This document shows positions 13,359 through 40,487 of a stretch of DNA of 64,000 nt, one piece after another. The translations under genes and the position numbers were made by a program. The notes beneath the pieces were generated by a model. The model was given only the letters and a program-made list of their open reading frames with translations, ran no database searches and was not told the origin of the DNA. The stretch lies in assembly GCF_002803515.1 (NCBI RefSeq), contig NZ_PHQX01000001.1:2852001-2916000 (forward strand). Reading direction: 5' to 3'. Source of the DNA: Stenotrophomonas lactitubi. GTDB lineage: Bacteria; Pseudomonadota; Gammaproteobacteria; Xanthomonadales; Xanthomonadaceae. The stretch's first letter is position 1. Every line of letters starts with the position of its first letter.

Positions 13359-13460
13359 GGCGGGGCACTGTGGGTTTGCGGGGCCGCCGTGAACCCATCC
13401 CTGGGGGCTTGGTCGCCGCATCCATGCGGCTCACACCCCGCAAACCCACAGTGCCCCGCC
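13359..13460 (+). repeat. 52-nt-loop stem-loop A1
   Basis: Arms 13359-13383 and 13436-13460 pair perfectly over 25 bp (GGCGGGGCACTG... with ...CAGTGCCCCGCC). Loop 13384-13435 is 52 nt and contains CCCATCCCTGGGG and the perfect inner hairpin GCCGCATCCATGCGGC. Confidence 0.9.
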
Positions 13461-13640
13461 TTCGACAGTTTCCCGGTGGCCGGTAGATCCACGCCATGCG
13501 TGGATGAATCTCCATCGAAATCGAATATTTCGAGAATTGAACGAAGAGCATCCACGCATGGCGTGGATCTACCGTGTCGACCAAGGTCGACACCTACCAG
13601 AGCCGAAAGCTGTTCCGACAGCTCGCGGACAATTGTCGAA

Positions 13641-13742
13641 GGCGGGGTGGGTCCGGTGGCAGGGGCGTGAGCCGCATGGATGCGGCGACCGAGCCTACAG
13701 GGACGTATTTACGGCGCCCCCTGCCACCGGACCCACTCCGCC
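13641..13742 (-). repeat. 52-nt-loop stem-loop A2 (inverted)
   Basis: Arms 13641-13665 and 13718-13742 pair over 25 positions with one mismatch. Loop 13666-13717 is 52 nt; read on the minus strand it aligns without gaps to the A1 loop, with the same inner hairpin GCCGCATCCATGCGGC but a changed first hairpin (TACGTCCCTGTA). Confidence 0.9.
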
Positions 13743-13825
13743 TACCCACGGATAGCCAGCTCTTGCCGTTGACGTTGCCGTTGATTCGGCAGGTGCAGGG
13801 CGCAGCCCTGCCGGGCACACCACCC

Positions 13826-14545
13826 TCACCGCCTGGGCGCGAGCTGCTCCAGCATCTCCCACGATTTCAGGCCGCGTGCGCCAAGGTGATGAGCCAGCAC
13901 CCGCCGCATCGGCAGGCGCAGGCTGGCCAGATCGGCGGCGTCCGGCTCGTCGTCAGCTGCCAGGGCCAGCAGTGCTGAACCCGTAGCCGCCGCGCGACGC
14001 TCGCCGCCACGCTCACTGAGCAGGCGCTGCGGCCCTTCCTGCGGGTCCAGCTCATAGCGCGCCGCCGGGTCGATCGGCTGGCCATCGCTGGCGGTCTCCA
14101 GATCGAAGCCCACGCCCAGCGCCGCCAGCAGCTCGCGTTCGAAACGACGCAGGGTCCAGGCCAGGCCGGCACCCACGGCCAGGCGCGCACGCGCTTCGCC
14201 GTAGGCCAGGTACAACTCCGGCAGCGGATCCTGGCGCGGCGCCAGGCGCAGGGTCAGTTCACTCAAATAGAACCCGGCCAGCATGGCCTGGCCGAGCAGG
14301 CGCGGCGCCACATCCAGCGCTTCAGCACCGCGCAGCTGGGCCAGTTCGCCACGCTGCAGCGCGCAGAAGCGGATCCACTGCAGGGGCTGCAGGGCCGCTC
14401 TCAGCACCTGGCCCTTGGCGGTGGAAACGCCGCGCGCGAGCAGGCCGATCCGGCCGTGCTCGGCGCTCAATACCTCGACCAGCAAGCTGGTCTCGCGATA
14501 GGCCCGCGCATGCAGCACGAAGCCGGTGTCGTCCTCGATCAGCAT
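13826..14545 (-). CDS. recO: DNA repair protein RecO
   Basis: A 239-residue recombination mediator that, with RecR, loads RecA onto SSB-coated single-stranded DNA in the RecFOR pathway. The N-terminal OB-fold ([31 protein letters not shown]) and the helical C-terminal half are typical. It is the last gene of the leftward lepA-lepB-DUF4845-rnc-era-recO block, 18 bases after era, which is the common order in gammaproteobacteria. The zinc-binding cysteines present in some RecO proteins are missing, as is usual for this group. Composite repeat A follows its stop codon. Confidence 0.95.
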
Positions 14546-14563
14546 CGAAGCGACCGTCGCGGC

Positions 14564-15460
14564 TTATTCGTAGCCGAAGGCCTTCAGCGCGGCCTCGTCA
14601 TCGGACCAGCCCTCACGCACGCGCACCCAGGTTTCCAGGAACACCTTGGCCCCGAACAGACGCTCCATCTGCAGGCGGGACTTGGCCCCGATCTCCTTCA
14701 GGCGGGTGCCGCCCTTGCCGATCACGATCGCCTTCTGGCCTTCGCGCTCGACCCAGATCACCGCACCGATGCGCAGCAGGTTGCCGTCCTCGGTGAAGCG
14801 CTCGATCTCCACCGTGGTGGCGTACGGCAGCTCTTCGCCCAACTGGCGCATCAGCTGTTCACGCACCAGTTCGCCCGCCAGGAAGCGCTGGCTGCGGTCG
14901 GTGATTTCGTCTTCGCCGAACATCGGCGGGGCTTCCGGCAACAGCGCCAGCACATCACGGACCAGGGCTTCCAGGCCGTTGCGCTTCTGCGCCGAAATCG
15001 GATGCACCGACGAGAAGTCACGGCCGGCGGTCACTTCCTGCAGGAACGGCAGCAGTGCGCCCTTGTCCTTCATGCGGTCGATCTTGTTGACCACCAGCAC
15101 CACCGGGATACCGGCGTCGCGCAGCACGTTGAAGGCCAGGCTGTCCTCTTCGTCCCAGCGTCCGGCTTCGATCACCAGCAGGCCGGCGTCGACGCCTTCC
15201 AGCGAACCGCGGGCGGCGCGGTTCATGACCCGGTTCATCGCCCGCTTCTGCACCTTGTGCAGACCAGGTGTATCGACCAGCACCAGCTGCCCTTCCGGGT
15301 AGGTGGCGATGCCCAGCAGGCGGTGACGGGTGGTCTGCGGCCGGTTGGACACGATGCTGACCTTGGCCCCGACCAACGCATTGGTCAGGGTCGATTTGCC
15401 CACGTTCGGGCGGCCGATGACGGCCACGCTGCCGCAATGATGGGGAGTTTGTTCGCTCAC
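14564..15460 (-). CDS. era: GTPase Era
   Basis: A 298-residue Ras-like GTPase with a C-terminal KH domain that binds 16S rRNA during 30S subunit assembly. G1 is [10 protein letters not shown]2 is in RPQTTRHR, G3 is DTPG and G4 is NKID; the KH domain follows with [13 protein letters not shown]. The gene starts with GTG, and this codon overlaps the rnc stop (GTGA), so translation is coupled to rnc. The rnc-era-recO order matches the conserved cluster linking rRNA processing and ribosome maturation. Confidence 0.97.
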
Positions 15461-16137
15461 TTGGAATCCAGTTGTTCAAGGACGGCCGCAGCCGCTTGTT
15501 GTTCGGCGATCCGCCGCGAGGAGCCTTCGCCCTCGGTGCTGGCGGCGGGGTCGGCTACGTTGCAGCGTACCCGGAAGTGTTTGGCGTGGTCGTCACCGGA
15601 TTCTGACACCAGTTCGTACTGAGGCAACGCCTTCTGTCGGCCCTGCAGCCATTCCTGCAGGCGGGTCTTGGGATCCTTCTCCGGTCGCCCGGTGGCCGGC
15701 AGCGCCTCCATCGAGGCGGCAAACCAGGGCAGGACCATCGCCCGGCAGGCTTCAAAGCCCACGTCCAGGTAGATCGCCGCGACCACGGCCTCGAATGCAT
15801 CGGCCAGGGTCGAGTCGCGGCGATGGCCGCCGGACTTCATTTCGCCAGGCCCCATCGTCAGCCGGTCGCCCAGCTGCAGGGTCCGCGCGATCACCGCCAG
15901 CGCACCCTCGCGCACCAGCTCGGCGCGGGCGCGGGTCATCGCGCCTTCGTCTGCCTTGGGCCAGCGCAGGTACAACGCCTCGGCGACCATCATGTTGACG
16001 ATGCTGTCGCCAAGGAATTCCAGCCGCTCGTTATGCGGCGCGCCGGCACTGCGATGGGTCAGCGCCTGCTTGAGCAGGTCTGGATCGCGGAAGGCATGAC
16101 CGATCAGGTCTTCACGTTGGAAAGATTTATTCGGCAC
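15457..16137 (-). CDS. rnc: Ribonuclease III
   Basis: A 226-residue double-stranded-RNA endonuclease that processes rRNA precursors and structured mRNAs. The catalytic signature [10 protein letters not shown] is at about residues 36-45, the second acidic cluster is [13 protein letters not shown], and the C-terminal half is a double-stranded-RNA binding domain. It starts with GTG, inside the last codons of the DUF4845 gene (11-base overlap), and its stop overlaps era. The long palindromic repeats elsewhere in this window would be natural substrates if transcribed; that is only an inference. Confidence 0.97.
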
Positions 16138-16510
16138 CGCTACGGGTCAGGTCCTGGGAAGAATCGAATTTGCCAACCACGTCCAGGTTGCCGACCAGCG
16201 GGCGGCGCACTTCGTAGTTGACCTTGAGGGTCCAGCCATTGTCGCGACGGTCGAACTTGACGTTGGCCGGCTTCACATTGTCCGAGTAGTTGATGTACAG
16301 CCGCTTGAAGAACAGGTCCTGGATGTTGGCCGGCGCCATGCTGCCGATACCGGGTTCCTTGGCCAGGCTCTTCATCGCCGAGCGCACCGCGTAATACTCC
16401 TGGTACATCGGGAACAGCTTCATGCCGACGTAGAGGAAGAAGCCAACCACGATCAGGACTACCAGGAACGAAGTCAGGGTCATCCCGCGCTGCGTGTTCA
16501 TCGTCTTCAT
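16127..16510 (-). CDS. DUF4845 membrane-anchored protein
   Basis: A 127-residue protein with one N-terminal membrane segment ([20 protein letters not shown]) and a periplasmic or cytoplasmic soluble part. It belongs to the family found between lepB and rnc in beta- and gammaproteobacteria; its function is not established. The N-terminus ([15 protein letters not shown]) is pilin-like, recalling a type IV prepilin leader without the downstream E5. GGGAG lies 6 bases upstream of the ATG. The stop overlaps the rnc start. Confidence 0.85.
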
Positions 16511-16544
16511 TGCGTTCTCCCCAGATACGCGAGTGGATGTGAAG

Positions 16545-17339
16545 TCAGTTGATGCTCGAGCCGATCCGCGACGGTTCGAAGCCGTCCTTGCAGAACCAGC
16601 CCTGGCAGTTCAGCCAGATCAGGAATGCCTTGCCACGCAGGTTCTCTTCCGGCAGCAGGCCCCAGAAACGGCCGTCGTCGCTGTTGTCACGATTGTCGCC
16701 CATCACCAGGTACTTGCCAGCCGGCACGGTCCACTGGCCCTGGCCACGCGGATAGTCGGTCTCCAGCACGGTGTGGGTGCGGCCCGGCAGGTGCTCGACC
16801 AGCAGGTTGGCGCCCTCGCCCTGGCCCTTGTGGCCGGCGTAGATGCCCTTGTTGTCGTACTTCAGCGGCTCGCCGTTGAGGATCACGCCGTCGCCTTCGA
16901 ACACCACGGTGTCACCCGGCACGCCGATCACGCGCTTGATGAAGTTCTCGCCCTTGGCCGGGTCGTTGTCGCCATGGCCGGGGAAGTGGAACACCACCAC
17001 GTCACCGCGGGCCGGATCGCCGACCGGCACGAAGCGGGTATTGGTGATCGGCAGGCGCAGGCCATAGGAGAACTTGTTGACCAGGATGAAATCGCCGATC
17101 AGCAGGTTCGGCATCATCGAGCTGGACGGGATCTTGTACGGCTCGGCGATGAAGCTGCGCACGATCAGCACGATCGCCAGCACCGGGAAGAACGCACGCG
17201 AGTAGTCCACCAGCACCGGCTCGGTGTCGAGCAGGCCGGCGCGCTGGGCGCGACGCTTGGCCAGGTACAGCTTGTCGGCCAGCAGGATCAGGCCGGAGGC
17301 CAGGGTCAGCACGACCAGGAGGATCTCAAACAGTTTCAT
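16545..17339 (-). CDS. lepB: Signal peptidase I
   Basis: A 264-residue inner-membrane serine protease that cleaves signal peptides of secreted proteins. Two N-terminal membrane segments are followed by the nucleophile in PSSSMMPNL, the general-base lysine in FIKRVIGVPGD and box E MGDNRDNSDDGRFWG. It follows lepA by 54 bases, the widely conserved lepA-lepB arrangement. The C-terminus has a CQGWFCKDGF cysteine pair. Start ATG at 17339 gives the family-typical MKLFEILL. Confidence 0.97.
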   Translation of the reverse strand: MKLFEILLVVLTLASGLILLADKLYLAKRRAQRAGLLDTEPVLVDYSRAFFPVLAIVLIVRSFIAEPYKIPSSSMMPNLLIGDFILVNKFSYGLRLPITNTRFVPVGDPARGDVVVFHFPGHGDNDPAKGENFIKRVIGVPGDTVVFEGDGVILNGEPLKYDNKGIYAGHKGQGEGANLLVEHLPGRTHTVLETDYPRGQGQWTVPAGKYLVMGDNRDNSDDGRFWGLLPEENLRGKAFLIWLNCQGWFCKDGFEPSRIGSSIN

Positions 17340-17393
17340 TCAGGGTCCTTTGCAACGTCACCGGACGATCGGCCCGAAGGCCGGTTTCGGGGC

Positions 17394-19202
17394 TTATTTG
17401 TTGTCCATCTGCAGCACGGCCAGGAAGGCTTCCTGCGGAATTTCCACGCGGCCGACCTGCTTCATGCGCTTCTTGCCTTCCTTCTGCTTTTCCAGAAGCT
17501 TCTTCTTGCGCGAAACGTCGCCACCATAGCACTTGGCCAGAACGTTCTTGCGCATGGCCTTGACCGTGGTGCGCGAGATGATCTGCGAGCCGACGGCGGC
17601 CTGGATGGCGACGTCGAACTGCTGGCGCGGGATCAGGTCCTTCATCTTCTCGCACAGCTCGCGACCACGACGATCGGCATGGCTGCGGTGCACGATCAGC
17701 GAAAGCGCATCGACCTTGTCACCATTGATCAGCACGTCCACGCGCACGAACGGGCCGGCATCGAAACGCACGAAGTGGTAGTCCAGCGAGGCATAGCCAC
17801 GGCTGACCGACTTCAGCTTGTCGAAGAAGTCCAGCACCACTTCGGCCATCGGCAGCTCGTAGCTGATCTGCACCTGGCTGCCCAGGTAGTTGATGCCGAT
17901 CTGGCTGCCGCGCTTTTCTTCGCACAGCTTGATGATGTTGCCGATGTACTCCTCGGGGGTGAGCACGTTGGCGCGGATGATCGGCTCGCGGATCTCCTGC
18001 ACATGGTTCAACGGCGGCAGCTTGGCCGGGTTGTCCATGTTGATGATCGTGCCGTCGGTCTTCAGGACTTCATACACCACCGTCGGCGCGGTGCTGATCA
18101 GGTCCAGGTTGTATTCGCGTTCCAGGCGTTCCTGCACGATTTCCATGTGCAGCATGCCGAGGAAGCCGCAGCGGAAACCGAAGCCCATCGCTTCGGAGCT
18201 TTCCGGCTCGAAGCGCAGCGCGGCATCATTCAGGCGCAGCTTGTCCAGCGCTTCGCGCAGGTCAGGGTAATCCTCGGCATCGACCGGGAACAGGCCGGCG
18301 AACACGCGCGGCTGCATTTCCTGGAAGCCCGGCAGCGGCTTCGGCGCCGGATCGGCAGCGAGGGTGAGGGTGTCACCGACGGGTGCGCCATGCACGTCCT
18401 TGATGCTGGCAGTGACCCAGCCCACTTCGCCCGCACGCAGTGCCGGCAGCACCTTGCGCTTCGGGGTGAACACACCGACGTTGTCGACCTGGTGGTTGCG
18501 GCCGGTGGACATCACCTGCAGCTTGTCGCCGGCCTTGATCTCGCCCTGCATCACGCGCACCAGCGAGACCACGCCCAGGTAGTTGTCGAACCACGAGTCG
18601 ATGATCAGCGCCTGCAGCTTGTCGGTATCACGCGGCACCGGCGCCGGAATGCGATGCACGATCGCTTCCAGCACGTCGACCACGTTCAGGCCGGTCTTGG
18701 CACTGACCGGGACTGCGTCGCTGGCATCGATGCCGATCACGGCCTCGATCTCGGCCTTGGCACGCTCGATATCGGCGGTGGGCAGGTCGATCTTGTTGAT
18801 CACCGGCACCACTTCCAGCCCCTGCTCCACCGCGGTGTAGCAGTTGGCCACCGACTGCGCCTCCACACCCTGCGCTGCATCGACCACCAGCAGCGCGCCC
18901 TCGCAGGCGGCCAGCGAGCGGCTGACTTCATAGGAGAAGTCGACGTGGCCGGGGGTGTCGATGAAGTTCAGATGGTAGGTCTGGCCGTCCTTCGCCACGT
19001 ACGGCAGCGACACCGACTGCGCCTTGATCGTGATGCCACGCTCGCGCTCGATCGGGTTGGAGTCGAGCACCTGCGCTTCCATCTCGCGGGCCTGGAGGCC
19101 GCCACAGAGCTGGATGATGCGGTCGGCCAGCGTGGACTTGCCGTGGTCGACGTGGGCGATGATGGAGAAGTTGCGGATGTTCCGCATCGAATCAGAGGAC
19201 AT
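17394..19202 (-). CDS. lepA: Elongation factor 4 (LepA)
   Basis: A 602-residue translational GTPase associated with ribosome biogenesis and back-translocation. The G domain has AHVDHGKST (G1), DTPGHVDF (G3) and NKIDLP (G4), followed by the EF-G-like domains and the LepA-specific C-terminal domain ending VLQMDNK. Two starts are possible: the ATG giving [13 protein letters not shown] and an ATG five codons later; neither has a strong ribosome binding site. It heads the lepA-to-recO block; upstream lies the mucD terminator region. Confidence 0.97.
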
Positions 19203-19305
19203 AGAGAGGTGGCGGCGGCGCGCGGCGTCGTCAGGGTAACGGTCGATTATCGCACGCCCGGAGGGTGGCCGCGTGGTTGGCCTGGCCGGACCGCCCCCGG
19301 AATGG

Positions 19306-19333
19306 CCGAAGCCCCGCCGGGGCGGGGCTTCGG
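19306..19333 (-). terminator. Probable terminator after mucD
   Basis: CCGAAGCCCCGCC-GG-GGCGGGGCTTCGG is a perfect 13-bp hairpin 40 bases after the mucD stop. There is no clear T run on the minus strand, so it may act with the adjacent hairpin GGCCGCC-ATGAA-GGCGGCC or only attenuate read-through into lepA. Confidence 0.6.
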
Positions 19334-19372
19334 GGATACCACAAGGGCCGCCATGAAGGCGGCCATCCGTTG

Positions 19373-20911
19373 TTACGGGCCGGCCTTGACCGCCACAAAG
19401 GCGCTGTTGCCGCTGCCGGTACGGACCAGCAGCATGACCACGTCGCCCTTCTTGTACCCGGACAGTGCACGGTTCAGGCTTTCCACGCTGCCGACCGGGG
19501 TGCTTGCCACCTGCAGGATCACCATGCCGCCGGACAGGCCGGCATCACGGGCGCCTTCGCCCTTCACTGCGGTGATGCGGACACCTTCGCCCGCCTCAAG
19601 ACCCAGCTGCTTGCGCTGCGGCGCGGTCAGATCGGCAACCTCCAGCCCCAGCAGGGCATTGGCACCGGTCTGCGGAGCGGCCGTGTCATTGCCTGCGGAC
19701 AGGCTGCGGGCATTGCCCTGCGCATCCTCGGCCAAAGCGGTCAGGGTCGCGCTCAGGTCACGCGGCTTGCCGTCGCGGATCACGCCCAGGGTGACGCGGC
19801 TGCCCGGCGCCATCGCACCGATCAGCGGCGGCAGGTCAGACCAGCTGTTGACCGGCGCACCGTTCACCGTGCGGATGACGTCTCCGATCTTGACCCCGGC
19901 CTTGGCCGCAGCGCTGTCCGGCACGATCTGGTTGACCAGCGCGCCGCGGCTGTCGGGCAGGCCCATCGCCTGTGCCTTCAGGCCGTCGATTTCCTGGACC
20001 ACCGCGCCGAGCTGGCCACGGGTGACCTTGCCGGTCTTCTTGATCTGCTCGACCGCGCTCATCGCCAGGTCGATCGGGATCGCGAAGCTGATACCCATGT
20101 AGCCACCCGAGGCCGAGAAGATCTGCGAATTGATGCCGACCACTTCACCGCGGGTGTTCAGCAGCGGGCCGCCGGAATTGCCCTGGTTGATCGCCACGTC
20201 GGTCTGGATGAACGGCACATAGCGCTGGTCCGGCCCACCGGTGTTGCGGCCGAGGGCACTGACCACGCCGGCGGTAACCGAGTGGTCCAGCCCGAACGGC
20301 GAGCCGATCGCGACAACCCACTGACCGGGCTTCAGGCTGTTGGAATCACCCACGCGCACGGTCGGCAGGTTCTTGCCGTCGATCTTCAGCAGGGCCACGT
20401 CGTACTGCTGGTCGCTGCCGACCACCTTGGCGGTGAACTCGCGACGATCGCCGAGCTTGACCTTCACTTCACTGGCGTCGGCGACCACGTGGTAATTGGT
20501 CAGCACGTAGCCGTCAGGCGAAATGATGAAGCCCGAGCCCATGCCGCGGCCCTTGATGCTGGGTCCACCGTCCTGGCCACCGGGCCCCTGCCCCGGCATC
20601 GGGAAATCCGGGCCGAAGAAGCGGCGGAAGAACTCGGGCATCTCGTCATCACCCGGGCCCATGCCGCCCCGTGCCTGGCGGTTGCTGCGGACGATGGTGG
20701 TGTCGACGTTGACCACACCGGGGCCGACCTGTTCCACCAGATTGGTGAAATCAGGCAGACCGCTGACCAACGGTTGCGCCGGTGCGCGGGGCGCCGCAGC
20801 AGCGGCTGCGGCCTGCGGCTGGGCGGCAGGCGCCGCCGGTTGGGCGCAGGCCACCAGCGGCAGGGTCAGGGCGAACAGGCCAATGGCATGTGTGCGCAGT
20901 CGGGGAGTCAT
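19373..20911 (-). CDS. mucD: DegP/MucD-type periplasmic serine protease
   Basis: A 512-residue HtrA-family protease/chaperone for misfolded envelope proteins. The catalytic triad is visible as NYHVVAD (His), YDVALLKID (Asp) and GNSGGPL (Ser), followed by two PDZ domains. The N-terminus [10 protein letters not shown] resembles a lipobox, so it may be a lipoprotein rather than a free periplasmic enzyme. GGAGG lies 10 bases before the ATG. It is the third gene of rpoE-rseA-mucD, the standard arrangement in which the protease serves the sigma-E envelope stress response. Confidence 0.95.
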
Positions 20912-24875: not shown

Positions 24876-24973
24876 GGGGCGGTGTGGGTTGGCAGGACAC
24901 GCCGTAAACCCATCCATGGGGGCTCGATGGCGCCATCCATGGCGCCAACGGTCCTGCCAACCCACACCGCCCC
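24876..24973 (+). repeat. 52-nt-loop stem-loop B1
   Basis: Arms 24876-24898 and 24951-24973 pair perfectly over 23 bp. Loop 24899-24950 is 52 nt, with inner hairpins CCCATCCATGGG and TGGCGCCATCCATGGCGCCA. Confidence 0.9.
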
Positions 24974-25147: not shown

Positions 25148-25245
25148 CGGGCGGGTGGGTTGCGCAGGGGCGTGAGCCGCATGGATGCGGCGCCCGAGCT
25201 TACAGGGACGTACTTGCAGCGCCCCCTGCGCAACCCACCCGCCCG
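25148..25245 (-). repeat. 52-nt-loop stem-loop B2 (inverted)
   Basis: Arms 25148-25170 and 25223-25245 pair perfectly over 23 bp. Loop 25171-25222 is 52 nt; on the minus strand it is closest to the A2 loop, with inner hairpin GCCGCATCCATGCGGC. Confidence 0.9.
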
Positions 25246-26360: not shown

Positions 26361-26387
26361 CTTTCGACCGTCAAAGGAGTGCAACAC

Positions 26388-31373: not shown

Positions 31374-31477
31374 GGCGGGGCGGTGTGGGCTTGCAGGACA
31401 CGCCGTAAACCCGTCCATGGGGGCTCGATGGCGCCATCCATGGCGCCAACGGTCCTGCAAGCCCACACCGCCCCGCC
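31374..31477 (+). repeat. 52-nt-loop stem-loop C1
   Basis: Arms 31374-31399 and 31452-31477 pair perfectly over 26 bp. Loop 31400-31451 is 52 nt and differs from the B1 loop at only one position. Confidence 0.9.
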
Positions 31478-31511: not shown

Positions 31512-31551
31512 GGGGTCGGATCCGTTTTCCTTGGAAAACGGATCCGACCCC
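31512..31551. repeat. GGGGTCGGATCC palindrome in composite C
   Basis: GGGGTCGGATCCGTTTTCC (31512-31530) is perfectly inverted at 31533-31551 with a 2-base gap and is followed by TTCTTTGTT, so it could work as a terminator. A near-identical palindrome occurs in composite D. Confidence 0.85.
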
Positions 31552-31625: not shown

Positions 31626-31727
31626 GGCGGGGTGGGTCCGGTTGCGGGGGTGTCCGCGGCATGGATGCCGCGGCCAAGCCCCCAGGGATGGGTTTACGGC
31701 GTCCCCCGCAACCGGACCCACCCCGCC
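31626..31727 (-). repeat. 52-nt-loop stem-loop C2 (inverted)
   Basis: Arms 31626-31650 and 31703-31727 pair perfectly over 25 bp. Loop 31651-31702 is 52 nt; on the minus strand it has inner hairpins CCCATCCCTGGG and CCGCGGCATCCATGCCGCGG. Confidence 0.9.
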
Positions 31728-31822: not shown

Positions 31823-33079
31823 TCAGCCGTTGGCCATCCACTTCAGGATCAGCCCGGTCACGTATGCCAGTCCGGTACCGGTGGCATAACCGACTGTGCC
31901 GAGCAGCACGCCCACCGGCGCCAGCGTCGGATGGAACGCTGCTGCCACCACCGGTGCCGACGCTGCCGCACCGATGTTGCCCTGCGAACCAATCGCGAAG
32001 AAGAACAGCGGCGCGCGCACCAGCTTGGCAACGATCCACAGCACCAGCACGTGGGTGGCCATCCAGATCGCACCGAGCAGGAACAACCACGGACGATCCA
32101 GCAGCGAGAGCAGGTTCATCTGCATGCCGATGCAGGCGATCAGGAAGTACAGGAACACGGTGCCCAGACGCGAAGCACCGGCGGCTTCCAGCCGTCGTGC
32201 ACGGGTGAAGCTGAGGGTCAGGCCCATCGCAGTGGACAGCAGGATCACCCAGACGAACTGGCTGTCGAGGCTGAACTGGCTGGCCCAGCTGACATTGGCC
32301 TTGAACCAGCCGGACAACGGTGCGGCGATGGCATGGGCCAGGCCGACGCCGCCCAGTGCGACGCCGACAATCACCATCAGGTCGGTCATGCTGGGGATGC
32401 GTGCGTTCTGCGCGTCGTAGGCGCTGATGCGCGCCTTCATCTCATCGATGGCGCGTGTGTCGGCCCCGTTGCGGGCATCGATCTGCTGCGCGCGGTTGGC
32501 CATGAACAGCAGGATCGCCATCCACAGGCTGGCGCAGGCCACGTCGACCACGGCGAACTGGCCGAAGGTGGTGGCATCGGTGCCGAACACTTCGCGCATG
32601 GCAACCATGTTGGCGCCACCGCCGATCCAGCTGCCGGCCAATGCGGCCATCCCGGCCCAGGTGTCACCGGCCACGGTTTCCGGGTGGATCAGTTTCATCA
32701 CCTGGAAGGAGACGATGGCACCGAGCATGATGCCGGCGGTGCCGGCGCAGAACACCAGCAGCAGCTTCGGGCCGAGCTTGGCGATGCCTTTCAGGTCGAT
32801 CGACAGGGTCAGCAGGACCAATGCCGCCGGCAGCAGCACGTCACGTGCGACCGGGTTGTACAACGAGGTGTTGTGGCCATCGATGACACCGGCGGTGTTG
32901 TAGATGGCGGGGATGAAATAGCACAGCAGCAGTGCGGGTACCCAGGCGAAGATCTTCTTCAGCAAGGGCGTTGGGCCACTGGCAGCCCAGAAGATCAGGG
33001 CGAGGGTGGCGGCAATCAGACCAAGGCCAACGATGTCGTTGCTGATCAGGGCAGTAGCGGTAGCGGGTTCGGTCGGCAT
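31823..33079 (-). CDS. DUF819 family membrane protein
   Basis: A 418-residue polytopic inner-membrane protein with about 11-12 hydrophobic segments. Conserved features of the family are GSWIGGGANMVAMREVFG, a duplicated architecture and GSQGNIGAAASAPVVAA near the C-terminus. The family is related to transporters of the YjcL type, but no substrate is known. AGAGG lies 4 bases before the ATG. A terminator-like hairpin sits in the 5' leader at 33105-33133, which may attenuate transcription. The gene is convergent with composite C. Confidence 0.88.
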   Translation of the reverse strand: MPTEPATATALISNDIVGLGLIAATLALIFWAASGPTPLLKKIFAWVPALLLCYFIPAIYNTAGVIDGHNTSLYNPVARDVLLPAALVLLTLSIDLKGIAKLGPKLLLVFCAGTAGIMLGAIVSFQVMKLIHPETVAGDTWAGMAALAGSWIGGGANMVAMREVFGTDATTFGQFAVVDVACASLWMAILLFMANRAQQIDARNGADTRAIDEMKARISAYDAQNARIPSMTDLMVIVGVALGGVGLAHAIAAPLSGWFKANVSWASQFSLDSQFVWVILLSTAMGLTLSFTRARRLEAAGASRLGTVFLYFLIACIGMQMNLLSLLDRPWLFLLGAIWMATHVLVLWIVAKLVRAPLFFFAIGSQGNIGAAASAPVVAAAFHPTLAPVGVLLGTVGYATGTGLAYVTGLILKWMANG

Positions 33080-33104
33080 GGGATCCTCTGTCGATCGAAA
33101 GAGC

Positions 33105-33133
33105 GGAAAAGAAAAGCGCCGCATAAGCGGCGC
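33105..33133 (-). terminator. Terminator-like hairpin in the DUF819 leader
   Basis: On the minus strand GCGCCGC-TTAT-GCGGCGC (33133-33116) is followed by TTTTCTTTTCC. It lies 37 bases upstream of the DUF819 ATG. No minus-strand gene ends here, so it cannot serve an upstream gene and may act as an attenuator. Confidence 0.55.
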
Positions 33134-33235
33134 GGGTCGAAATTAACATAGTCTTCACGCAGGGTCATGCTGCGCTGCTTGCGGCAACGCGCGGGCCTGC
33201 CGAGAATCGCAGCATTCCCTTCTGGAGCCTGCCCC

Positions 33236-33625
33236 ATGCAACTCGGCGCTTTTTCAGTCAGCCTGGCGGTGAAGGACCTGGCCACCTCGCGTGCGTTCTA
33301 TGAGGCGCTCGGGTTCTCGGTAACCGGTGGTGATGCGGCGCAGAACTGGCTGGTACTGCGCAACAACGGCATCGTGGTCGGCCTGTTCCAGGGCATGTTC
33401 GAGGGCAACCTGCTGACCTTCAATCCCGGCTGGGACCAGCACAAGCAGGAACTGGCCTCCTTCCAGGACATACGTGAGATACAGGCCGAACTGGATACCA
33501 AGGGCATTGAACTGGCGCTCCGCACCGATCCTGATGGCCAGGGCACGGGCTACCTGCAGCTGGCTGATCCCGACGGCAATGTGATCCTGATCGACCAGCA
33601 TGTGGCGCGGCCGACGGCGCGGTGA
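33236..33625 (+). CDS. VOC/glyoxalase-fold protein
   Basis: A 129-residue protein with the paired beta-alpha-beta-beta-beta units of the vicinal oxygen chelate superfamily: [21 protein letters not shown] in the first half and [17 protein letters not shown] in the second. Members include lactoylglutathione lyase, dioxygenases and antibiotic-binding proteins; the reaction here is unknown. GGAG lies 8 bases before the ATG. It is divergent from the DUF819 gene and convergent with the sensor kinase gene, with two GTAG-type hairpins after its stop. Confidence 0.85.
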
Positions 33626-33636
33626 CGCGGCCAGCG

Positions 33637-33706
33637 TGCCAACCAAGGTTGGCACCTACCAGAACGCACGCGGCCATTGCCTGGTAGGCGTCGACCTCGG
33701 TCGACG
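33637..33706. repeat. Inverted pair of GTAG (SMAG-type) hairpins
   Basis: TGCCAACCAAGGTTGGCACC ending CTAC (33637-33659, GTAG-headed on the minus strand) and GTAGGCGTCGACCTCGGTCG (33684-33706) form a head-out pair, as described for SMAG elements of S. maltophilia. It lies between convergent genes. Confidence 0.75.
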
Positions 33707-33712
33707 GACAGG

Positions 33713-35011
33713 TCAGCCTGGCCGCGATGTACCAAAGTCGAGCGAGGCCAGGGTGCCGCGCGGCTCACAGGGCTGCAGCTGCAGGGTCCAGCCCAGGTGT
33801 TCGCACAGCCGCGCGATCAGTTCCAGGCCGATGCCGCCGCGGTCACCACGCTCCCCGCGTGCCATCCGCGCATGGATCGCAGCGATCTCTTCCGGACTCA
33901 TGCCATGGCCGGGGTCCTGCAGGGTCAACACCGCTGCCGAGGTCAGGCGCAGCTCGATATGACCGCGCCCGCTGTTCTCGATGGCATTGCGCAGCAGGTT
34001 GCCGATCGCTGCCTGCACCACGGCCAAGGGTGCAACGATGTCCACCGGCGCAGCCTGGATGCCGATGCTCAGGTCCTTGTCGCCCAGCAGATGGCGATGG
34101 TCGTCGACTATCTCCGGCAGCAGCTGGTCCAGGGCGATGCGCTCGGCGCGGCTGGCCAGACGTGCGGGATCACGCGCCAGCACCAGCAACAACTCGATCA
34201 GCTGCTCGACGCCCTGCGCGGTACGCAGTACGCGCTGCATCTGCTGGCGTGCGCGCTCGGGCAGGCCCGGCTGTTCCAGGGCCAGCTCGGCGGCACCGGT
34301 CATCACCGCGATCGGCGTGCGCAGTTCATGGCTCGCGGTGCTGATGAACACCCGCTCACGCTCGACGAACTGCTCGTTGCGATCAAGGTAATCGTTCAGC
34401 GCATCGGCAATGGTATGCAGCTCGGAACTGCCTCGCGGGTCGACGTGGATGCGCTGGCCCTGCACGCCAGGCCGCAGTGCACCGATGTGCTGGGCCAGCA
34501 GGCTCAACGGGCGCACCATGCGCTCCATGCCGAACGAGGCCATCAACACGGTGACGAAGATCATGATGATGCCGGCGAGCATCACCCAGCGTGTGGCGAA
34601 CTGTTCCAGGTCGTGGAAATCGGAGATGTCCAGGGCCAGCGCAACCCGTCCCATCGAACCGGTATCGCGCACCATCACCGCCGTCTCGCGCTCGCCGATC
34701 ATCACCCCGTCATGCAACCCCGGATGCAGGGTGCGCAGGCTGGCGGGCATGTTGGCTTCGTTGAAGCGGAACAGGCTGAGCGTGTCCGAGTCCTGCCAGC
34801 GATAGTGCGGCTCGTGCTCGGTGTGATCGACAATGCTGTCCAGTTCCGAATTGAGCAGCGCGCGCCACGCGGCATGCTCGGCGTGTTCGTGCACGTAGTT
34901 GCCCACGCTGAACACTGCCAGCGAGATCAACGCCAGGTAGCCCAGCAGCCACCACACCACCCGCCGGTACAGCGGGCCCGGTTTACGCGCCATCGTCATC
35001 GTTCCGTGCAT
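33713..35011 (-). CDS. Sensor histidine kinase (ColS-like)
   Basis: A 432-residue membrane kinase. Two membrane segments (VVWWLLGYLALISLAVFSVG and WVMLAGIIMIFVTVLMASFG) frame a short periplasmic sensor region rich in histidine, glutamate and aspartate (HTEHEPHYRW), then HAMP, the phosphorylation motif SHELRTPIAVM and an ATPase domain with LLRNAIENS and GIGLELIARLCEHLG. The start overlaps the regulator gene by 29 bases; two further ATGs lie 4 and 6 codons later. The acidic/histidine-rich sensor and the neighbouring lipid A genes resemble ColS, which senses zinc or iron; the identity is inferred. Confidence 0.85.
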   Translation of the reverse strand: MHGTMTMARKPGPLYRRVVWWLLGYLALISLAVFSVGNYVHEHAEHAAWRALLNSELDSIVDHTEHEPHYRWQDSDTLSLFRFNEANMPASLRTLHPGLHDGVMIGERETAVMVRDTGSMGRVALALDISDFHDLEQFATRWVMLAGIIMIFVTVLMASFGMERMVRPLSLLAQHIGALRPGVQGQRIHVDPRGSSELHTIADALNDYLDRNEQFVERERVFISTASHELRTPIAVMTGAAELALEQPGLPERARQQMQRVLRTAQGVEQLIELLLVLARDPARLASRAERIALDQLLPEIVDDHRHLLGDKDLSIGIQAAPVDIVAPLAVVQAAIGNLLRNAIENSGRGHIELRLTSAAVLTLQDPGHGMSPEEIAAIHARMARGERGDRGGIGLELIARLCEHLGWTLQLQPCEPRGTLASLDFGTSRPG

Positions 35012-35693
35012 CGGCGCCTGCAGTAGACGCCAGCCGGTAGCCGACCCGCGGCAGGGTATGGATCAGCTTGTCGGCAAACGGACCGTCCACGCTGCGCCGC
35101 AGCTCGTACACATGCGAGCGCAGCAGGTCGCCATCCGGCGGCTCATCACCCCACAGGGCGAACTCCAGCTGCTGCCGGGTCACCGCACCCGGGCTGGCCC
35201 GCATCAGCACTTCCAGCAGCTTGCGGCAGGCCGGGTACAGGTGCAGCACCTGGCCGGCACGCTGCGCCTCCAGGGTCGCCAGGTCCAGCACCAGGTCGCC
35301 CACCTGCAGGCGCTTGCGCGGATTGCGGCCCTGCGCGCGCAGCAGCAGCGCCTCCAGGCGCACTTCCAGTTCCGGCAGAGCGAATGGTTTGGTCAGGTAG
35401 TCATCCGCGCCGGCACGGAAGCCCGCGATCTTGTCCGGCAGTTCATCGCGCGCGGTCAGCATGATCACCGGCACTTCCGAGGCGTGCTCGGAACGCAGCC
35501 GGCGCAGCACCTCCGGGCCCTCCATGCGCGGCAGCATCCAGTCCAGGATCACCGCGTCGTACGGGTGGCTGCCGGCCAGGTGCAGGCCGGTGATGCCATC
35601 CGGGGCAACGTCCAGCACATGCCCGCGCGACTCGAAGTAGTCGAACAGGTTGGCCACCAGCTGGCGGTTGTCCTCGATCACCAACAGGCGCAT
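34983..35693 (-). CDS. OmpR-type response regulator (ColR-like)
   Basis: A 236-residue DNA-binding regulator. The receiver domain (LLVIEDNRQLVANLFDYFES, phosphoacceptor in VILDWMLPRMEG, KPF at about 102-104) is followed by a winged-helix domain (RQQLEFALWGDEPPDGDLLR, HTLPRVGYRL). The N-terminus is very close to ColR proteins. It overlaps the kinase gene and is divergent from the ArnT-like gene, which it probably controls together with the PAP2 and EptA genes. In Pseudomonas ColRS regulates eptA and arn genes; the same role is inferred here from position. Confidence 0.88.
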   Translation of the reverse strand: MRLLVIEDNRQLVANLFDYFESRGHVLDVAPDGITGLHLAGSHPYDAVILDWMLPRMEGPEVLRRLRSEHASEVPVIMLTARDELPDKIAGFRAGADDYLTKPFALPELEVRLEALLLRAQGRNPRKRLQVGDLVLDLATLEAQRAGQVLHLYPACRKLLEVLMRASPGAVTRQQLEFALWGDEPPDGDLLRSHVYELRRSVDGPFADKLIHTLPRVGYRLASTAGADARNDDDGA

Positions 35694-35825
35694 GCACGAA
35701 ACATCCACGGGAAGTGCCACCATGGTAGCGCCGCGGATGTCGGAATGCGGTCGCCTTGGCGGCGGCTCTGACGGCTTTCCCACGTGCCCCTCATCAGAAT
35801 GGCCGTTTTGCTGCCGGAGCCCCCC

Positions 35826-37529
35826 GTGCCCGTTGCCCTGCCCCGCCGCTGGCACCTTCCCCTGCTGTGGCTGCTGATCGTGATGGCGTTGGCTGCCGGT
35901 CTTGGCATGCGCCAGCCGCAGCCACCGGACGAGCCACGGTTCGTACTGGCCGCGCGGGCCATGGTGGAGAGCGGCGAGTGGCTGCTGCCGCACCGGGGCA
36001 GTGAGCTGTACGCCGAAAAGCCGCCGGTGTTCATGTGGCTGCAGGCCGCTGCCCATCAGGTGGTCGGCAGCTGGCAGTGGTCGTTCCTGCTGCCGTCGCT
36101 GCTGGCCGCGCTGCTCAGTCTGTGGCTGGTTTCGGACCTGGCGCGCCGACTGTGGTCGCCACGCCATTCGCTGTACGCACTTGGCGCACTGTTCTGCACC
36201 CTGCAGTTCGGCCTGATGGCCAAGCGCGCGCAGATCGACATGGTGCTGGTGGGCATGACCACGCTGGCCCTGTGGGGCCTGCTGCGCCACCTCTGCGAGC
36301 GCCGCAACCTGCCGGCGCTGTGGCTGGCCGGCTTCGCCGCTGGCGTCGGCACGGTGACCAAGGGTGTGGGCTTCCTGCCGCTGCTGATGGTGCTGCCCTG
36401 GTTCGGCTGGTGGCTGTACCAACGCCGTCGCGGCCAGCAGGTGGACGGCCCCCACCCCGCCAGCCTGCTGTGGCTGGTTCCGGCCTTCCTGCTGGGCACG
36501 GCGGTATGGCTGGCGCCGCTGGGCTGGGCGCTGCTGCATGAACCCAGTGCATCGTTGCAGTCGTACGCACACGAACTGCTGTTCAAGCAGACCGGCACCC
36601 GCTATGCCAACGCCTGGCATCATCGCCAGCCGGTCTGGTATTACCTGCAGGTGATCGCCACCCTGTGGCTGCCCGGCGCCCTGCTGCTGCCGCTGATGAT
36701 CAAGCCGTGGTGGCGTCGCCTGCGTCGCGGTGACCAGCGCCAATGGCTGCTGCTGGGCTGGGCCGCGCTGGTCCTGCTGTTCTTCACTGCCAGCCCCGGC
36801 AAGCGTGAGGTGTATGTGCTGCCGATGTTGCCGGCGATGGCACTGGCAGTTGCACCGTTGCTGCCCGGCCTGCTGCGTCGCCTGTGCGTGCGCCGCTACC
36901 TGTTCGGCTACAGCCTGCTGCTGATGCTGGCTACCGGCGCGCTTGGCGTGATGATGCTGACCGACAGCCCCTGGGCGCAGGCGCAGCTGGCACGGCGGGC
37001 GATGCCCGACACGTTGCTGCCCGTATTCGGCGATGGCCTGCTGACCTTCGCCATCGCCGTGGCGACGCTGGCGGTATGGCTGCGGGTACGACGCGCGGCC
37101 ACACTCGTACTGCTCACCCACGGCCTGTTGTGGATGCTGTACGGACTGGTGCTGATACCGGCGCTGGACCCCTACGCCTCGGCGTCGGCGGTGATGCGCC
37201 GGGTGGGCACGCGGATCGGCCCCGATGCGGAACTTGCGCTGGTGGCCTGGCGCGAACAGAACCTGCTGCAGGCCGACCGGCCGGTACGTGAGTTCGGTTT
37301 CAAGCGGCCGTGGGCGGAGCAGTGGCACGACGCTGGCCCATGGTTGGCCGAGGCCCCGGACAAGCGCTGGTTGCTGGTGCTGGACAAGGCGATGAGCCCC
37401 TGTGTCGATCCGGCCCAGGTCATCGAGATCGGTGTTGCAAACCGTAATCGTTGGCAGTTGCTTCCGGGTACTGCGTGGGACCCGGCGTGCCACGCCGAAC
37501 GCGCCGGCGCCAACGACGATGAAGACTGA
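35826..37529 (+). CDS. ArnT-like glycosyltransferase (GT39/PMT superfamily)
   Basis: A 567-residue membrane glycosyltransferase with about 12 hydrophobic segments. The first periplasmic loop DEPRFVLAARAMVESGEW and the following LYAEKPPVFMWLQA match the ArnT/PMT catalytic loop; ArnT moves 4-amino-4-deoxy-arabinose onto lipid A. The synthesis genes (arnBCAD) are not nearby, so the donor sugar could differ. I prefer the GTG at 35826, with GGAG 6 bases upstream; an ATG at 35799 and a GTG at 35784 are alternatives. The gene is divergent from the ColR-like gene and upstream of PAP2 and eptA. Confidence 0.8.
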   Translation: MPVALPRRWHLPLLWLLIVMALAAGLGMRQPQPPDEPRFVLAARAMVESGEWLLPHRGSELYAEKPPVFMWLQAAAHQVVGSWQWSFLLPSLLAALLSLWLVSDLARRLWSPRHSLYALGALFCTLQFGLMAKRAQIDMVLVGMTTLALWGLLRHLCERRNLPALWLAGFAAGVGTVTKGVGFLPLLMVLPWFGWWLYQRRRGQQVDGPHPASLLWLVPAFLLGTAVWLAPLGWALLHEPSASLQSYAHELLFKQTGTRYANAWHHRQPVWYYLQVIATLWLPGALLLPLMIKPWWRRLRRGDQRQWLLLGWAALVLLFFTASPGKREVYVLPMLPAMALAVAPLLPGLLRRLCVRRYLFGYSLLLMLATGALGVMMLTDSPWAQAQLARRAMPDTLLPVFGDGLLTFAIAVATLAVWLRVRRAATLVLLTHGLLWMLYGLVLIPALDPYASASAVMRRVGTRIGPDAELALVAWREQNLLQADRPVREFGFKRPWAEQWHDAGPWLAEAPDKRWLLVLDKAMSPCVDPAQVIEIGVANRNRWQLLPGTAWDPACHAERAGANDDED

Positions 37530-37641
37530 ACGACGATTCGCGCCGGGTGCGTATTAACCCGGCGCAAACGCATGTACGACCCTTCTCCGACATGCCAGTG
37601 ACGAGCATGGCCGCGGATTCCCGTAACGGCCCCTTCCCTGC

Positions 37642-38394
37642 ATGCCCGCTCGTCCTCTTGCCCCGGCAGTCTCCTTCGCGCCATCGCTGTTGGCGTCGCG
37701 TTTTGCCGTTACCCATCTTTGGCTGCCCTCTGTCATCGGCATTGCGGTGTTCACCCTGCTGATGGGCTTCGGTGGCGACCAGTGGCTGGCCGACCATCTG
37801 TTCCGCCTGGAGGGCGGTCAATGGGCCCTGCAGAACAGCTGGCTGACCCGTTCGGTAGTGCATAAAGGCGGCAAATGGTTGAGCACCGCTGCGGCCTTGG
37901 TGGTGATGCTGCTGTGCTTCCACCACTGGCGTCGTGGTCGTGATCGCACGCTGCGCTGGGCGCTGCTGTATGTGGTGATTGCCATGGCTCTGGGTACGGG
38001 CGCGATTTCCCTGCTGAAGTCGCTGGTGCCGATGGACTGCCCGTGGGATCTGCTGCGCTATGGCGGACACGAACCGTTCGTCGGCCTTTTCAGCAACCGC
38101 CCGACCGGCATGGCCGCCCGCGCCTGTTTCCCCGCCGGCCACGCAAGCGCGGGATACGCGTGGCTGTGCCTGTATTTCTTCGCTCTGCTGTGGCGACCGT
38201 CGTGGCGCCGGGCCGGGCTGTGGATCGGCCTCGGCAGTGGCCTGGTGTTCGGCATCGGTCAGCAGCTTCGTGGCGCCCATTTCCTTTCGCATGACGTTGC
38301 TACCGCGTTGATATGTTGGCTGCTGTCGCTGGGCCTGTACCTGATGGTCCGCCGCCAGTTGGACCGCTCGACCCGCCAGGAGGCGATTGCATGA
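37642..38394 (+). CDS. PAP2-family membrane phosphatase
   Basis: A 250-residue integral membrane acid phosphatase. The three motifs are KSLVPMDCPWDL (a variant of KxxxxxxRP), CFPAGHASAGYAW (PSGH-like) and RGAHFLSHDVATAL (SRxxxxxHxxxD-like), set among six membrane segments. Relatives include LpxE, LpxT and undecaprenyl-diphosphate phosphatases. Directly ahead of eptA with an ATGA overlap, it probably removes or transfers lipid A phosphate, making a site for phosphoethanolamine. The first motif lacks the usual arginine-proline pair, which is worth noting. Confidence 0.83.
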   Translation: MPARPLAPAVSFAPSLLASRFAVTHLWLPSVIGIAVFTLLMGFGGDQWLADHLFRLEGGQWALQNSWLTRSVVHKGGKWLSTAAALVVMLLCFHHWRRGRDRTLRWALLYVVIAMALGTGAISLLKSLVPMDCPWDLLRYGGHEPFVGLFSNRPTGMAARACFPAGHASAGYAWLCLYFFALLWRPSWRRAGLWIGLGSGLVFGIGQQLRGAHFLSHDVATALICWLLSLGLYLMVRRQLDRSTRQEAIA

Positions 38395-40040
38395 ACGCAT
38401 CGGTCCAACGTTCCTTCCGGTTGCCGACACTGGCCAGCATCCGCGCATGGCGGCCACAGCTGTCCACCGAAGCGCTGATCATTCTCACCAGCCTGTTCTT
38501 CGCTGTGGCCGGCAATGGCCTGTTCTGGCACAGCGCCATGGCCAGCCATCCGGGCAGCCTGCGCTATGCGCTTTCGCTGCTGTTGCTGCTGCTGGGTGCA
38601 CACGGCGTGCTGCTGGGCATCCTGGTGTGGCGCTGGAATGCCAAGGTGGTGATCAGCGTACTGCTGCTGGTCACCGCGTTCGCCGCGCACTACATGAGCC
38701 GTTACCACATCTATCTGGATGCGGACATGCTGCGCAACGTGCTGGCCACCGACCCGAAGGAAAGCCGCGAACTGATGACGGTGTCGCTGCTGTGGCCGGT
38801 ACTGCTGCTGGCCGCGCTGCCGATGGTGGTGCTGTGGCGCGTTGAACTGCGCCGCCGCAGTTGGGGCCGCAGCCTGCTGTGGCGCATCGGCTTCCTGCTG
38901 GTGGCTGCGGCCACCGCACTCGGTGGCGCGCTCGTTTCATTCCAGGATGTATCGGCCCTGATGCGCAACCAGCGCGAAGTGCGCTACCTGGCAACGCCCG
39001 CCAATGTGCTGCTGGGGCTGCCGCGTGCGCTGCGCGGCGACAACCCGGTGCAACGCGCGCCGAAGTTGCCGATCGGTACCGATGCCAAGGCGACCCCGCG
39101 CGCACCGACCAGCAAGCCACGTCTGCTGGTGATCGTGATGGGCGAAACGGTACGCGCGCAGAACTGGGGCTTGAATGGCGGCCGCAATACCACGCCGGAG
39201 CTGGCCCAGGCGGCAGTGGTCAATTTCCCGGACATGCACTCATGCGGCACCAGCACGGAGGTTTCGTTGCCGTGCCTGTTCTCGCCATGGGGACGCCACG
39301 AGTACGACGAAAAGAAGATCCGCGCGCACCAATCGCTGCTGCATGTACTGAACCGCGCGGGCATCGCACCGCTGTGGCGCGACAACCAGTCCGGCTGCAA
39401 GGGCGTATGCGAGGGCCTGGACTTCCAGTCGCTGTCGGATGCAACCACGCCGGGGCTGTGTGCCGATGGCCGTTGCATGGACGAGATCCTGCTGCAGGAT
39501 CTGGCCACCCAGGTACGTGCGCGCCCGGGTGACCGGGTGGTGGTGATGCACCAGCTGGGCAACCATGGCCCGGCCTATTTCGAGCGCTACCCGCCCGCCT
39601 TCCGCCGCTTCACCCCGACCTGCGATACCCGCGACATCGGCCGCTGCACGCGCGAAGAAATCACCAACAGCTACGACAACGCCGTGCTGTACACCGACCA
39701 CTTCCTGAGCAAGACCATCGGCACGCTGCAGGGCCTGCAGGATTACGACACGGCGATGATCTACCTGTCCGACCACGGTGAATCGCTGGGCGAAAAGGGT
39801 CTGTACCTGCACGGCGTGCCATACGCGATCGCACCGGCCGAGCAGACCCGGGTACCGATGACGATGTGGTTCTCACCGGGCTTTGCCAGCAGCCGTGGGT
39901 TGGACCTGCAGTGCGTGCGCAAGCGCTCGGCCAGCTACACCGACCACGACAACCTGTTCCCGTCGGTGCTGGGGCTGATGCAGGTGAAGACCTCGCTGTA
40001 CGAGCGTGATCGCGACCTGTTCGCCGGCTGCGAGAGTTAG
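38391..40040 (+). CDS. eptA: Phosphoethanolamine transferase (EptA/MCR type)
   Basis: A 549-residue inner-membrane enzyme that adds phosphoethanolamine to lipid A, lowering negative charge and polymyxin binding. Five N-terminal membrane segments precede the periplasmic sulfatase-like domain with MGETVRAQNWGLNG, the catalytic threonine in SCGTSTEVSLPC, NHGPAYFERYP and YLSDHGESLGE. Several cysteine pairs are present as in EptA/MCR. The ATG overlaps the PAP2 stop, and AGGAGG lies 7 bases upstream. It is chromosomal, has the base composition of its neighbours and shows no sign of recent transfer. Composite repeat D follows its stop. Confidence 0.93.
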   Translation: MNASVQRSFRLPTLASIRAWRPQLSTEALIILTSLFFAVAGNGLFWHSAMASHPGSLRYALSLLLLLLGAHGVLLGILVWRWNAKVVISVLLLVTAFAAHYMSRYHIYLDADMLRNVLATDPKESRELMTVSLLWPVLLLAALPMVVLWRVELRRRSWGRSLLWRIGFLLVAAATALGGALVSFQDVSALMRNQREVRYLATPANVLLGLPRALRGDNPVQRAPKLPIGTDAKATPRAPTSKPRLLVIVMGETVRAQNWGLNGGRNTTPELAQAAVVNFPDMHSCGTSTEVSLPCLFSPWGRHEYDEKKIRAHQSLLHVLNRAGIAPLWRDNQSGCKGVCEGLDFQSLSDATTPGLCADGRCMDEILLQDLATQVRARPGDRVVVMHQLGNHGPAYFERYPPAFRRFTPTCDTRDIGRCTREEITNSYDNAVLYTDHFLSKTIGTLQGLQDYDTAMIYLSDHGESLGEKGLYLHGVPYAIAPAEQTRVPMTMWFSPGFASSRGLDLQCVRKRSASYTDHDNLFPSVLGLMQVKTSLYERDRDLFAGCES

Positions 40041-40132
40041 GGTTTGAAGGCAGGGCTGCGCCCTGCACCCGCAGAGGCCTTCAGGCAACGGCAACGGCCG
40101 AAGCAACAGCAGAAGCGGGTTTGCTGTGGGTT

Positions 40133-40234
40133 GGCGGGGTGGGTCCGGTGGCGGGAGACGCCGTAAACCCGTCCATGGGGGCTTGGCCGCGGCATCCATG
40201 CCGCGGACACTCCCGCCACCGGACCCACCCCGCC
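40133..40234 (+). repeat. 52-nt-loop stem-loop D1
   Basis: Arms 40133-40157 and 40210-40234 pair perfectly over 25 bp. Loop 40158-40209 is 52 nt, with inner hairpins around CCCGTCCATGGG and CCGCGGCATCCATGCCGCGG. Confidence 0.9.
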
Positions 40235-40270
40235 TTCGACAGTTGGCCGCAATCTGTCAGGCCATCTCTC

Positions 40271-40311
40271 GGGGTCAGATCCGTTTTCCGGAGGAAAACG
40301 GATCTGACCCC
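40271..40311. repeat. GGGGTCAGATCC palindrome in composite D
   Basis: GGGGTCAGATCCGTTTTCC (40271-40289) is perfectly inverted at 40293-40311 with a 3-base gap and followed by GTTTTTATT, giving a good terminator shape. It differs from the copy in composite C by one compensated base pair. Confidence 0.85.
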
Positions 40312-40385
40312 GTTTTTATTGTCGATACCTGACAGATGTGTCGACCAAGGTCGACACCCACCAACAGCCGCGGAGATCTGTCAGA

Positions 40386-40487
40386 GGTGGGGCGGTGTCG
40401 GAGTGCGGGGTGTCAGCCGCATGGATGCGGCTGCCAAGCCCCCATGGATGGGTTTACGGCGTCCCCGCAGTCCGACACCGCCCCGCC
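40386..40487 (-). repeat. 52-nt-loop stem-loop D2 (inverted)
   Basis: Arms 40386-40410 and 40463-40487 pair over 25 positions with two mismatches. Loop 40411-40462 is 52 nt; on the minus strand it has CCCATCCATGGG and the 8-bp inner hairpin AGCCGCATCCATGCGGCT. Confidence 0.9.

Follow-up and report, generated by a model that had tools for sequence, protein, structure and literature searches.

REPINs follow a rule of inverted pairs in fixed orientation. Their building blocks differ in scale from the other repeats considered here: REPs are described as 20–40 bp long (PMC3733652), and the Yersinia palindromic sequences YPAL/RU-2 measure ~168 bp, are flanked by duplications of 3–26 bp and have their targets at dyad symmetry, according to a review (PMC2229807), with 2–144 copies per Yersinia species listed elsewhere (PMC2847712). 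Among regulatory RNAs, CsrB, RsmY and RsmZ are described as small RNAs with several CsrA-binding loops, and Xanthomonas is reported to be without CsrB/CsrC homologues (PMC7286519).

The window, a stretch of 64,000 nt from contig NZ_PHQX01000001.1 of Stenotrophomonas lactitubi, contains repeats that can be compared with each of these systems (Table 1). The initial annotation had listed eight stem-loops in four inverted pairs, each with a 52-nt loop that aligns without gaps and is closed by self-complementary arms of 23–26 bp. All of this was borne out: 8/8 copies were located, 194 of 197 arm positions are paired (25/25, 24/25, 23/23, 23/23, 26/26, 25/25, 25/25 and 23/25 in copies 1–8, respectively), the loop is 52 nt long in 8/8 copies, and the eight heads align gap-free, with length differences confined to the arms. 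On the strand named in that annotation, whose loops read CATCC, the first copy of each pair lies in plus and the second in minus orientation; its complement is called the GGA strand here. Like REP/SMAG elements and REPINs, the repeats are intergenic and palindromic and form inverted pairs in a single orientation. They differ in having a conserved core of ~105 nt with a conserved junction, compared with the 20–40 bp published for REPs (PMC3733652). The spacer of pair 1 itself holds a REP pair, which we take to be SMAG-like. The GGGGTCRGATCCGTTTTCC hairpins between paired copies are a further repeat, seen too in the gaps of other species.

Table 1. Features of the window, with positions counted from its first nucleotide; for stem-loops the strand given is the GGA strand.
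Feature	Position	Strand	Head	CANGGANG loops	Remarks
Stem-loop copy 1	13359..13460	-	13384-13435	13419-13426, 13396-13403	
Stem-loop copy 2	13641..13742	+	13666-13717	13675-13682, 13698-13705	
Stem-loop copy 3	24876..24973	-	24899-24950	24934-24941, 24911-24918	
Stem-loop copy 4	25148..25245	+	25171-25222	25180-25187, 25203-25210	
Stem-loop copy 5	31374..31477	-	31400-31451	31435-31442, 31412-31419	
Stem-loop copy 6	31626..31727	+	31651-31702	31660-31667, 31683-31690	
Stem-loop copy 7	40133..40234	-	40158-40209	40193-40200, 40170-40177	
Stem-loop copy 8	40386..40487	+	40411-40462	40420-40427, 40443-40450	
Pair 1 spacer	13487..13568				SMAG-like REP pair, 13487-13505 and 13550-13568; then GTCGACCAAGGTCGAC palindrome, 13576-13591
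Pair 3 spacer	31512..31551				GGGGTCGGATCCG...CGGATCCGACCCC hairpin, a GGGGTCRGATCCGTTTTCC hairpin between paired copies
GGGGTCRGATCCGTTTTCC hairpin between paired copies	40271-40311				
Outer GC hairpin GGCAGGGCTGCGCCCTGCACC adjoining pair 4	40049..40069	+			Inverted counterpart, 40536-40556
Glycine riboswitch RF00504	45756-45858	+			62.5 bits; called 968-aa ORF at 45881-48787

A covariance model built from the eight window copies (R1) gave at least 149 matches in the same genome (149 of the best 150 of 2,462 first-look candidates), so the eight stem-loops are not a product of chance. At least 162 elements were counted there, comprising 61 pairs (<1 kb apart) and 40 unpaired copies; the count rests on 80 sources (the window plus 79 loci) searched for partners, with three doubtful, low-scoring matches excluded (L046, L047 and L085; 27–33 bits). 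Relative orientation is identical in 61/61 close pairs, the GGA strands pointing outward, as the fixed-orientation rule of REPINs would have it. Across 26 genomes of the genus, this one included, R1 matched in 20, with 1 to at least 150 matches each, and had none in 6; near-identical arms occur in named Stenotrophomonas records among the matches listed. At other loci, Stenotrophomonas loci included, 22 of 31 close neighbours are inverted, with 21 of the 22 facing the same way, and the other nine lie on one strand, four of them in one array. One locus (L349 of G567, positions 376–1286) carries five heads in tandem on one strand with a period of 227–229 nt, where inverted pairs are the usual arrangement. 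In a pattern search, 76/124 copies of this genome had a GC hairpin of GCAGGGCTGCGCCCTGC type no more than 150 nt away on their outer side and 0/124 had one on their inner side, so the basic unit in the genus may be a hairpin, a CAACGGC-rich spacer and the stem-loop.

Comparison of orthologous gaps, which the initial annotation had suggested as a presence/absence check, covered two of the four window sites, and at both the head is present in some loci and absent in others: a head was recognized by pattern in 7 of 26 loci compared at the site of pair 3 and in 7 of 24 at that of pair 4. In these counts three loci (L258, L260 and L261) end too early for a judgement, some of the more distant loci, with identity as low as 72%, may be non-orthologous, and degenerate copies escape the head pattern, as seen by eye in L264. 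The variants include unchanged arms around a different head, different arms, a broken or lost partner, and a gap of quite another kind. Additional sequence is inserted inside head hairpins at L263, L259, L121, L204 and, in the window's own genome, at C1:1423656. Since the inserts of L259, L121 and L204 begin alike with CTTGCTCGTGTGCGC, a second element seems to target head hairpins.

The constant loop length had been read as a sign of selection, or of a copying process, acting on the structure. What is conserved is a folded head rather than a length: the loop is exactly 52 nt in 114/114 copies kept from this genome and 50–54 nt class-wide (108 kept), where keeping a copy meant that it fitted the head pattern and an arm criterion, which left out 10/124 own and 24/132 class-wide elements. 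These nucleotides fold into a head built on a three-way junction and bearing two small hairpins; read on the GGA strand from the stem, it has the order Y, G, T, hairpin A, C, R, A, hairpin B, G, T, stem; hairpin B comprises GCC, three variable base pairs, a six-base loop, the bulge TTYAC and GGC. The Y–R junction pair is T–A in 68 and C–G in 46 of the 114 own copies, with zero exceptions. Covariation was scored in an alignment of 29 rows, namely window copy 1 and 28 of 121 loci chosen for diversity and for at least 9/10 outer pairs, a preselection that touched the outer stem and left the head helices free. Cells are paired in 92.2% of cases, compared with 64.3% in shuffled and at most 42.4% in slid alignments, and the covariation score is 0.718, compared with 0.201 and at most 0.130, respectively. 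Two of the five measures are weak: pairs changing on both sides number 20/24 versus 17.3 in shuffles, 9/500 of which reach 20, and further pair types number 52 versus 47.6, a value of 52 being reached by 44/500 shuffles. By helix, both-sided changes affect 8/8 pairs of hairpin A and the junction and 2/3 of the upper stem of hairpin B; the lower stem of B is invariant.

The mismatches tolerated in the arms indicate which strand folds, as a G·U pair accepted on the selected folded strand is seen as A·C on its complement. Over 84 clusters of arms sharing at most 75% identity, mismatches on the CATCC strand are A·C in 69 cases versus G·T in 7, with 43 clusters showing A·C and 4 showing G·T (p 3e-9); Y·Y mismatches number 50 versus 8 for R·R. 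The GGA strand is thus the one kept folded, and the excess of A·C is a conservative result because the arm finder favoured G·T on the CATCC strand. Strand-biased deamination is an alternative source of this excess and would likewise mark the GGA strand as exposed. Together, covariation and strand-specific wobble support a structured nucleic acid, where the earlier guess was a structured RNA.

On this same GGA strand, CANGGANG occurs within the hairpin loops with great regularity: in hairpin A of 122/124, hairpin B of 122/124 and both hairpins of 121/124 copies of the genome, a set that came from the covariance model and not from the head pattern, against 7 occurrences altogether on the opposite strand of the same copies. 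The window holds 64 occurrences on both strands, 16 of them inside the eight elements. The two GGA are spaced 20 nt apart in 121/121 own copies. Class-wide, 29/29 rows keep the GGA of hairpin A unchanged despite differing stems, the search pattern having covered hairpin B only; the loop of hairpin B varies at its two N, which alone proves little because the pattern permitted change at those places only. Both (A/U)CANGGANG(U/A) and RUACARGGAUGU are given as CsrA/RsmE motifs in the published account (PMC6692469). The match of the head's two GGA-strand hairpins to the CsrA/RsmA site suggests dispersed putative landing pads, and in this respect the initial annotation's guess of a protein target is supported, with CsrA/RsmA as the candidate. 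The likeness to CsrB, RsmY and RsmZ lies in the GGA hairpins, here predicted to serve CsrA/RsmA; the difference is that the present module has two sites, stands on a long stem and is dispersed.

We propose, with a probability of roughly 0.58, that these stem-loops belong to a family of palindromic, non-autonomous repeats of intergenic DNA that spans the Gammaproteobacteria and includes YPAL and Ysr224, and that their GGA-strand RNA is a candidate two-site CsrA/RsmA pad. One CsrA dimer can bridge two sites at a spacing of ~20 nt. In the proposed scheme the element, a non-autonomous repeat, would spread into the ends of genes; its functional form would be the GGA-strand RNA, in which a long, freely varying stem carries the conserved three-way-junction head and the two CANGGANG hairpin loops, 20 nt apart, could present a rigid pad for one dimer of CsrA/RsmA. 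Read-through of the intergenic region would yield RNA carrying such a pad. Acting in cis, bound CsrA could protect, mark or tune read-through 3′ ends; in trans, many copies could compete for CsrA and titrate it. Within a pair, a transcript from either side would run through the CATCC copy first and the GGA copy second, giving one pad per direction.

If CsrA binds, element-rich genomes would offer good sites by the hundred beyond the 5′ leaders where they are usually found. It would then become directly testable what titrates CsrA/RsmA in the Xanthomonas group, as CsrB/CsrC homologues are reported to be missing from Xanthomonas (PMC7286519). That a mobile family has scattered pads, up to hundreds of them, through gammaproteobacterial genomes, and that in some lineages these act as a distributed genomic sponge which determines the CsrA pool, is a tentative and rather doubtful extension; were it true, the pool would shift with gain and loss of elements, for example in relatives of Xanthomonas.

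Turning to wider distribution, a covariance model of the head built on the GGA strand (R2) matched 75/369 gammaproteobacterial genomes, representing 66/271 genera. In a phylum sample of 398 genomes, for which the class make-up is not given, all 32 matched genomes were Gammaproteobacteria, and in the window's own family 11/60 genomes matched, with 1 to at least 82 matches each. DNA-pattern matches in named records, among those listed, include Rheinheimera, Marinobacter, Microbulbifer, Methylotuvimicrobium, Idiomarina, Xanthomonas euroxanthea, Sodalis and Yersinia similis, and the head pattern matches two IMG/VR contigs. The window's own pair or copy gave zero matches in 72,556 plasmid and 50,697 phage records (blastn, E 1e-5), a search that would miss heads with other arms. 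CsrA (PF02599) was matched in 313/369 genomes of the class; as the head is present in 75/369, and in 11/60 of the family, the element is no core part of the Csr system, and its scattered distribution points to an element that is dispensable and probably mobile. By cross-counts made by eye, CsrA was matched in 70/75 element-bearing versus 243/294 other genomes (p 0.019), and in 61/62 versus 219/252 (p 0.006) among genomes with ≥90% completeness and ≤5% contamination. A CsrA match was absent in 5/75 element-bearing genomes, one of them 98% complete (G220).

Some of these observations would also fit a reading purely at the DNA level, in which the elements are mobile hairpins of REPIN type, an HUH/Y1 RAYT-like transposase reads the loops and head, inverted pairs are the mobile unit with unpaired copies as remnants, and the match to CsrA sites is coincidental. 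The single relative orientation of close pairs in this genome, the prevalence of inverted neighbours facing the same way elsewhere, and the spread from none to at least 150 R1 matches per genome within the genus are what such an element would produce; G·T is tolerated in single-stranded DNA too, and Y1_Tnp was matched in 61/75 element-bearing versus 180/294 other genomes (p 0.001). Like that of CsrA, this association may be due to genome size and kinship. However, no Y1_Tnp match was found in 14/75 element-bearing genomes, including the well-filled, at least 97% complete G263, G340, G098 and G371, a difference from RAYT-linked REPINs, and the commonest neighbouring ORF family lies within 600 nt of just 5/199 loci (element-spanning ORFs excluded). 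We regard the DNA-level reading as unlikely. An autonomous partner gene was rejected as a candidate, no family standing beside more than 5 of the 199 loci, which are not independent of one another.

The Y. similis genome has 83 R2 matches, the best 30 of which were sampled (L363–L392), 29 with full flanks and 25 with both end words. CANGGANG is present in both loops of 29/29 copies with full flanks, and the end words lie 157 nt apart in 25/25, or ~165 nt including shared ends. Direct duplications of 7–22 nt flank 13/25 copies, compared with 2.4% of shuffled flank pairs; the copies are often found at terminator-like hairpins, and at several of them, for example L366, L374, L375 and L379, the whole hairpin is duplicated. 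By gene calls from ORF length, and in small numbers, the GGA strand follows tandem genes in 10 cases versus 3, with one further case involving an overlapping ORF. These copies support a non-autonomous element that inserts at hairpins, and with it the earlier guesses of hairpin-specific transposition and of a non-autonomous mobile element.

Variable-length duplications at terminator-like hairpins are unusual for DDE or HUH transposases, which hints at another insertion chemistry; to our knowledge, no described HUH enzyme produces target duplications that vary in length, a further point against the DNA-level reading. A retro-mobile element, whose structured RNA a cellular reverse transcriptase would turn into DNA at terminators, would leave such variable duplications, including those of whole hairpins, and the enzyme or a chaperone may then grip the CsrA-like loops; the RNA-like character of the folded strand agrees with this. 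We nevertheless consider this origin improbable, given that no gene family recurs beside the elements in more than 5/199 loci and that the duplications are known from the Yersinia copies and not from the window's genus.

Within the proposed family of CsrA/RsmA-type pads, the head-bearing copies of Y. similis are very probably YPAL, an identity that rests on length, flanks and copy number: their length, variable duplications and hairpin sites agree with the lengths, duplications and dyad sites given in the YPAL review (PMC2229807), and 83 matches fall inside the listed range of 2–144 copies (PMC2847712). The window copies differ from YPAL in their ~105-nt core, as opposed to ~167 bp, their inverted pairs and their unrelated arms. 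The element is real, widespread and related to known YPAL, and the consulted portions of the YPAL accounts do not mention CsrA-type loops in the head; none of the papers searched contains both CsrA and YPAL. The conserved part of the Rfam family Ysr224 (RF02770) also aligns with the window head, at 33.9 bits (E 6e-6) and so below its gathering score of 70, and 0/229 class genomes had a Ysr224 match above that score. The Ysr224 model describes the opposite, CATCC strand, so the RNA observed in Yersinia may come from there. The initial annotation's statement that it knew of no named family is not entirely accurate, in view of the alignment with Ysr224 and the very probable link to YPAL. A single class-wide family would unite the repeat of Yersinia, a so far orphan family of Rfam and the unnamed repeats of Stenotrophomonas type under a clear fold with a testable protein partner.

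The genomic setting of the elements was assessed with genes called by a codon-usage script rather than from annotation, 19 of the 61 pairs being without enough flank. Element-bearing gaps are convergent in 29/84 and divergent in 7/84 cases, compared with 3/55 and 23/55 of element-free gaps of at least 120 nt. Beside pairs, elements mostly start 38–141 nt after the facing gene, with 2/53 further away. Such placement is what one would expect of a plain 3′-end element, a bidirectional terminator or mRNA-protecting hairpin of which only the structure matters, but this alternative has little probability in our view, as it leaves the invariant GGA loops, their 20-nt spacing and the conserved junction unexplained, a U run after the stem is absent in 8/8 window copies, and at one compared site (L297) the element, judged by eye, sits beyond an ordinary terminator. 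A gene-sense 3′-UTR element is not supported in this genome either, because unpaired copies between tandem genes show zero sense preference (11 versus 10).

Several named RNA families were also considered for the stem-loops. The ‘skipping-rope’ RNA was rejected with zero Rfam support, and the single paper listed for it proved unrelated. With E values up to 5, Rfam gave 36 matches in 40000–40620, mostly to microRNA families, which were discounted as sub-threshold matches of the generic hairpin kind; the best by bits was mir-3156 (37.1 bits versus a gathering score of 76). At gathering scores, the window contains no Rfam family for the stem-loops and a single match, the glycine riboswitch, which lies directly upstream of the called ORF.
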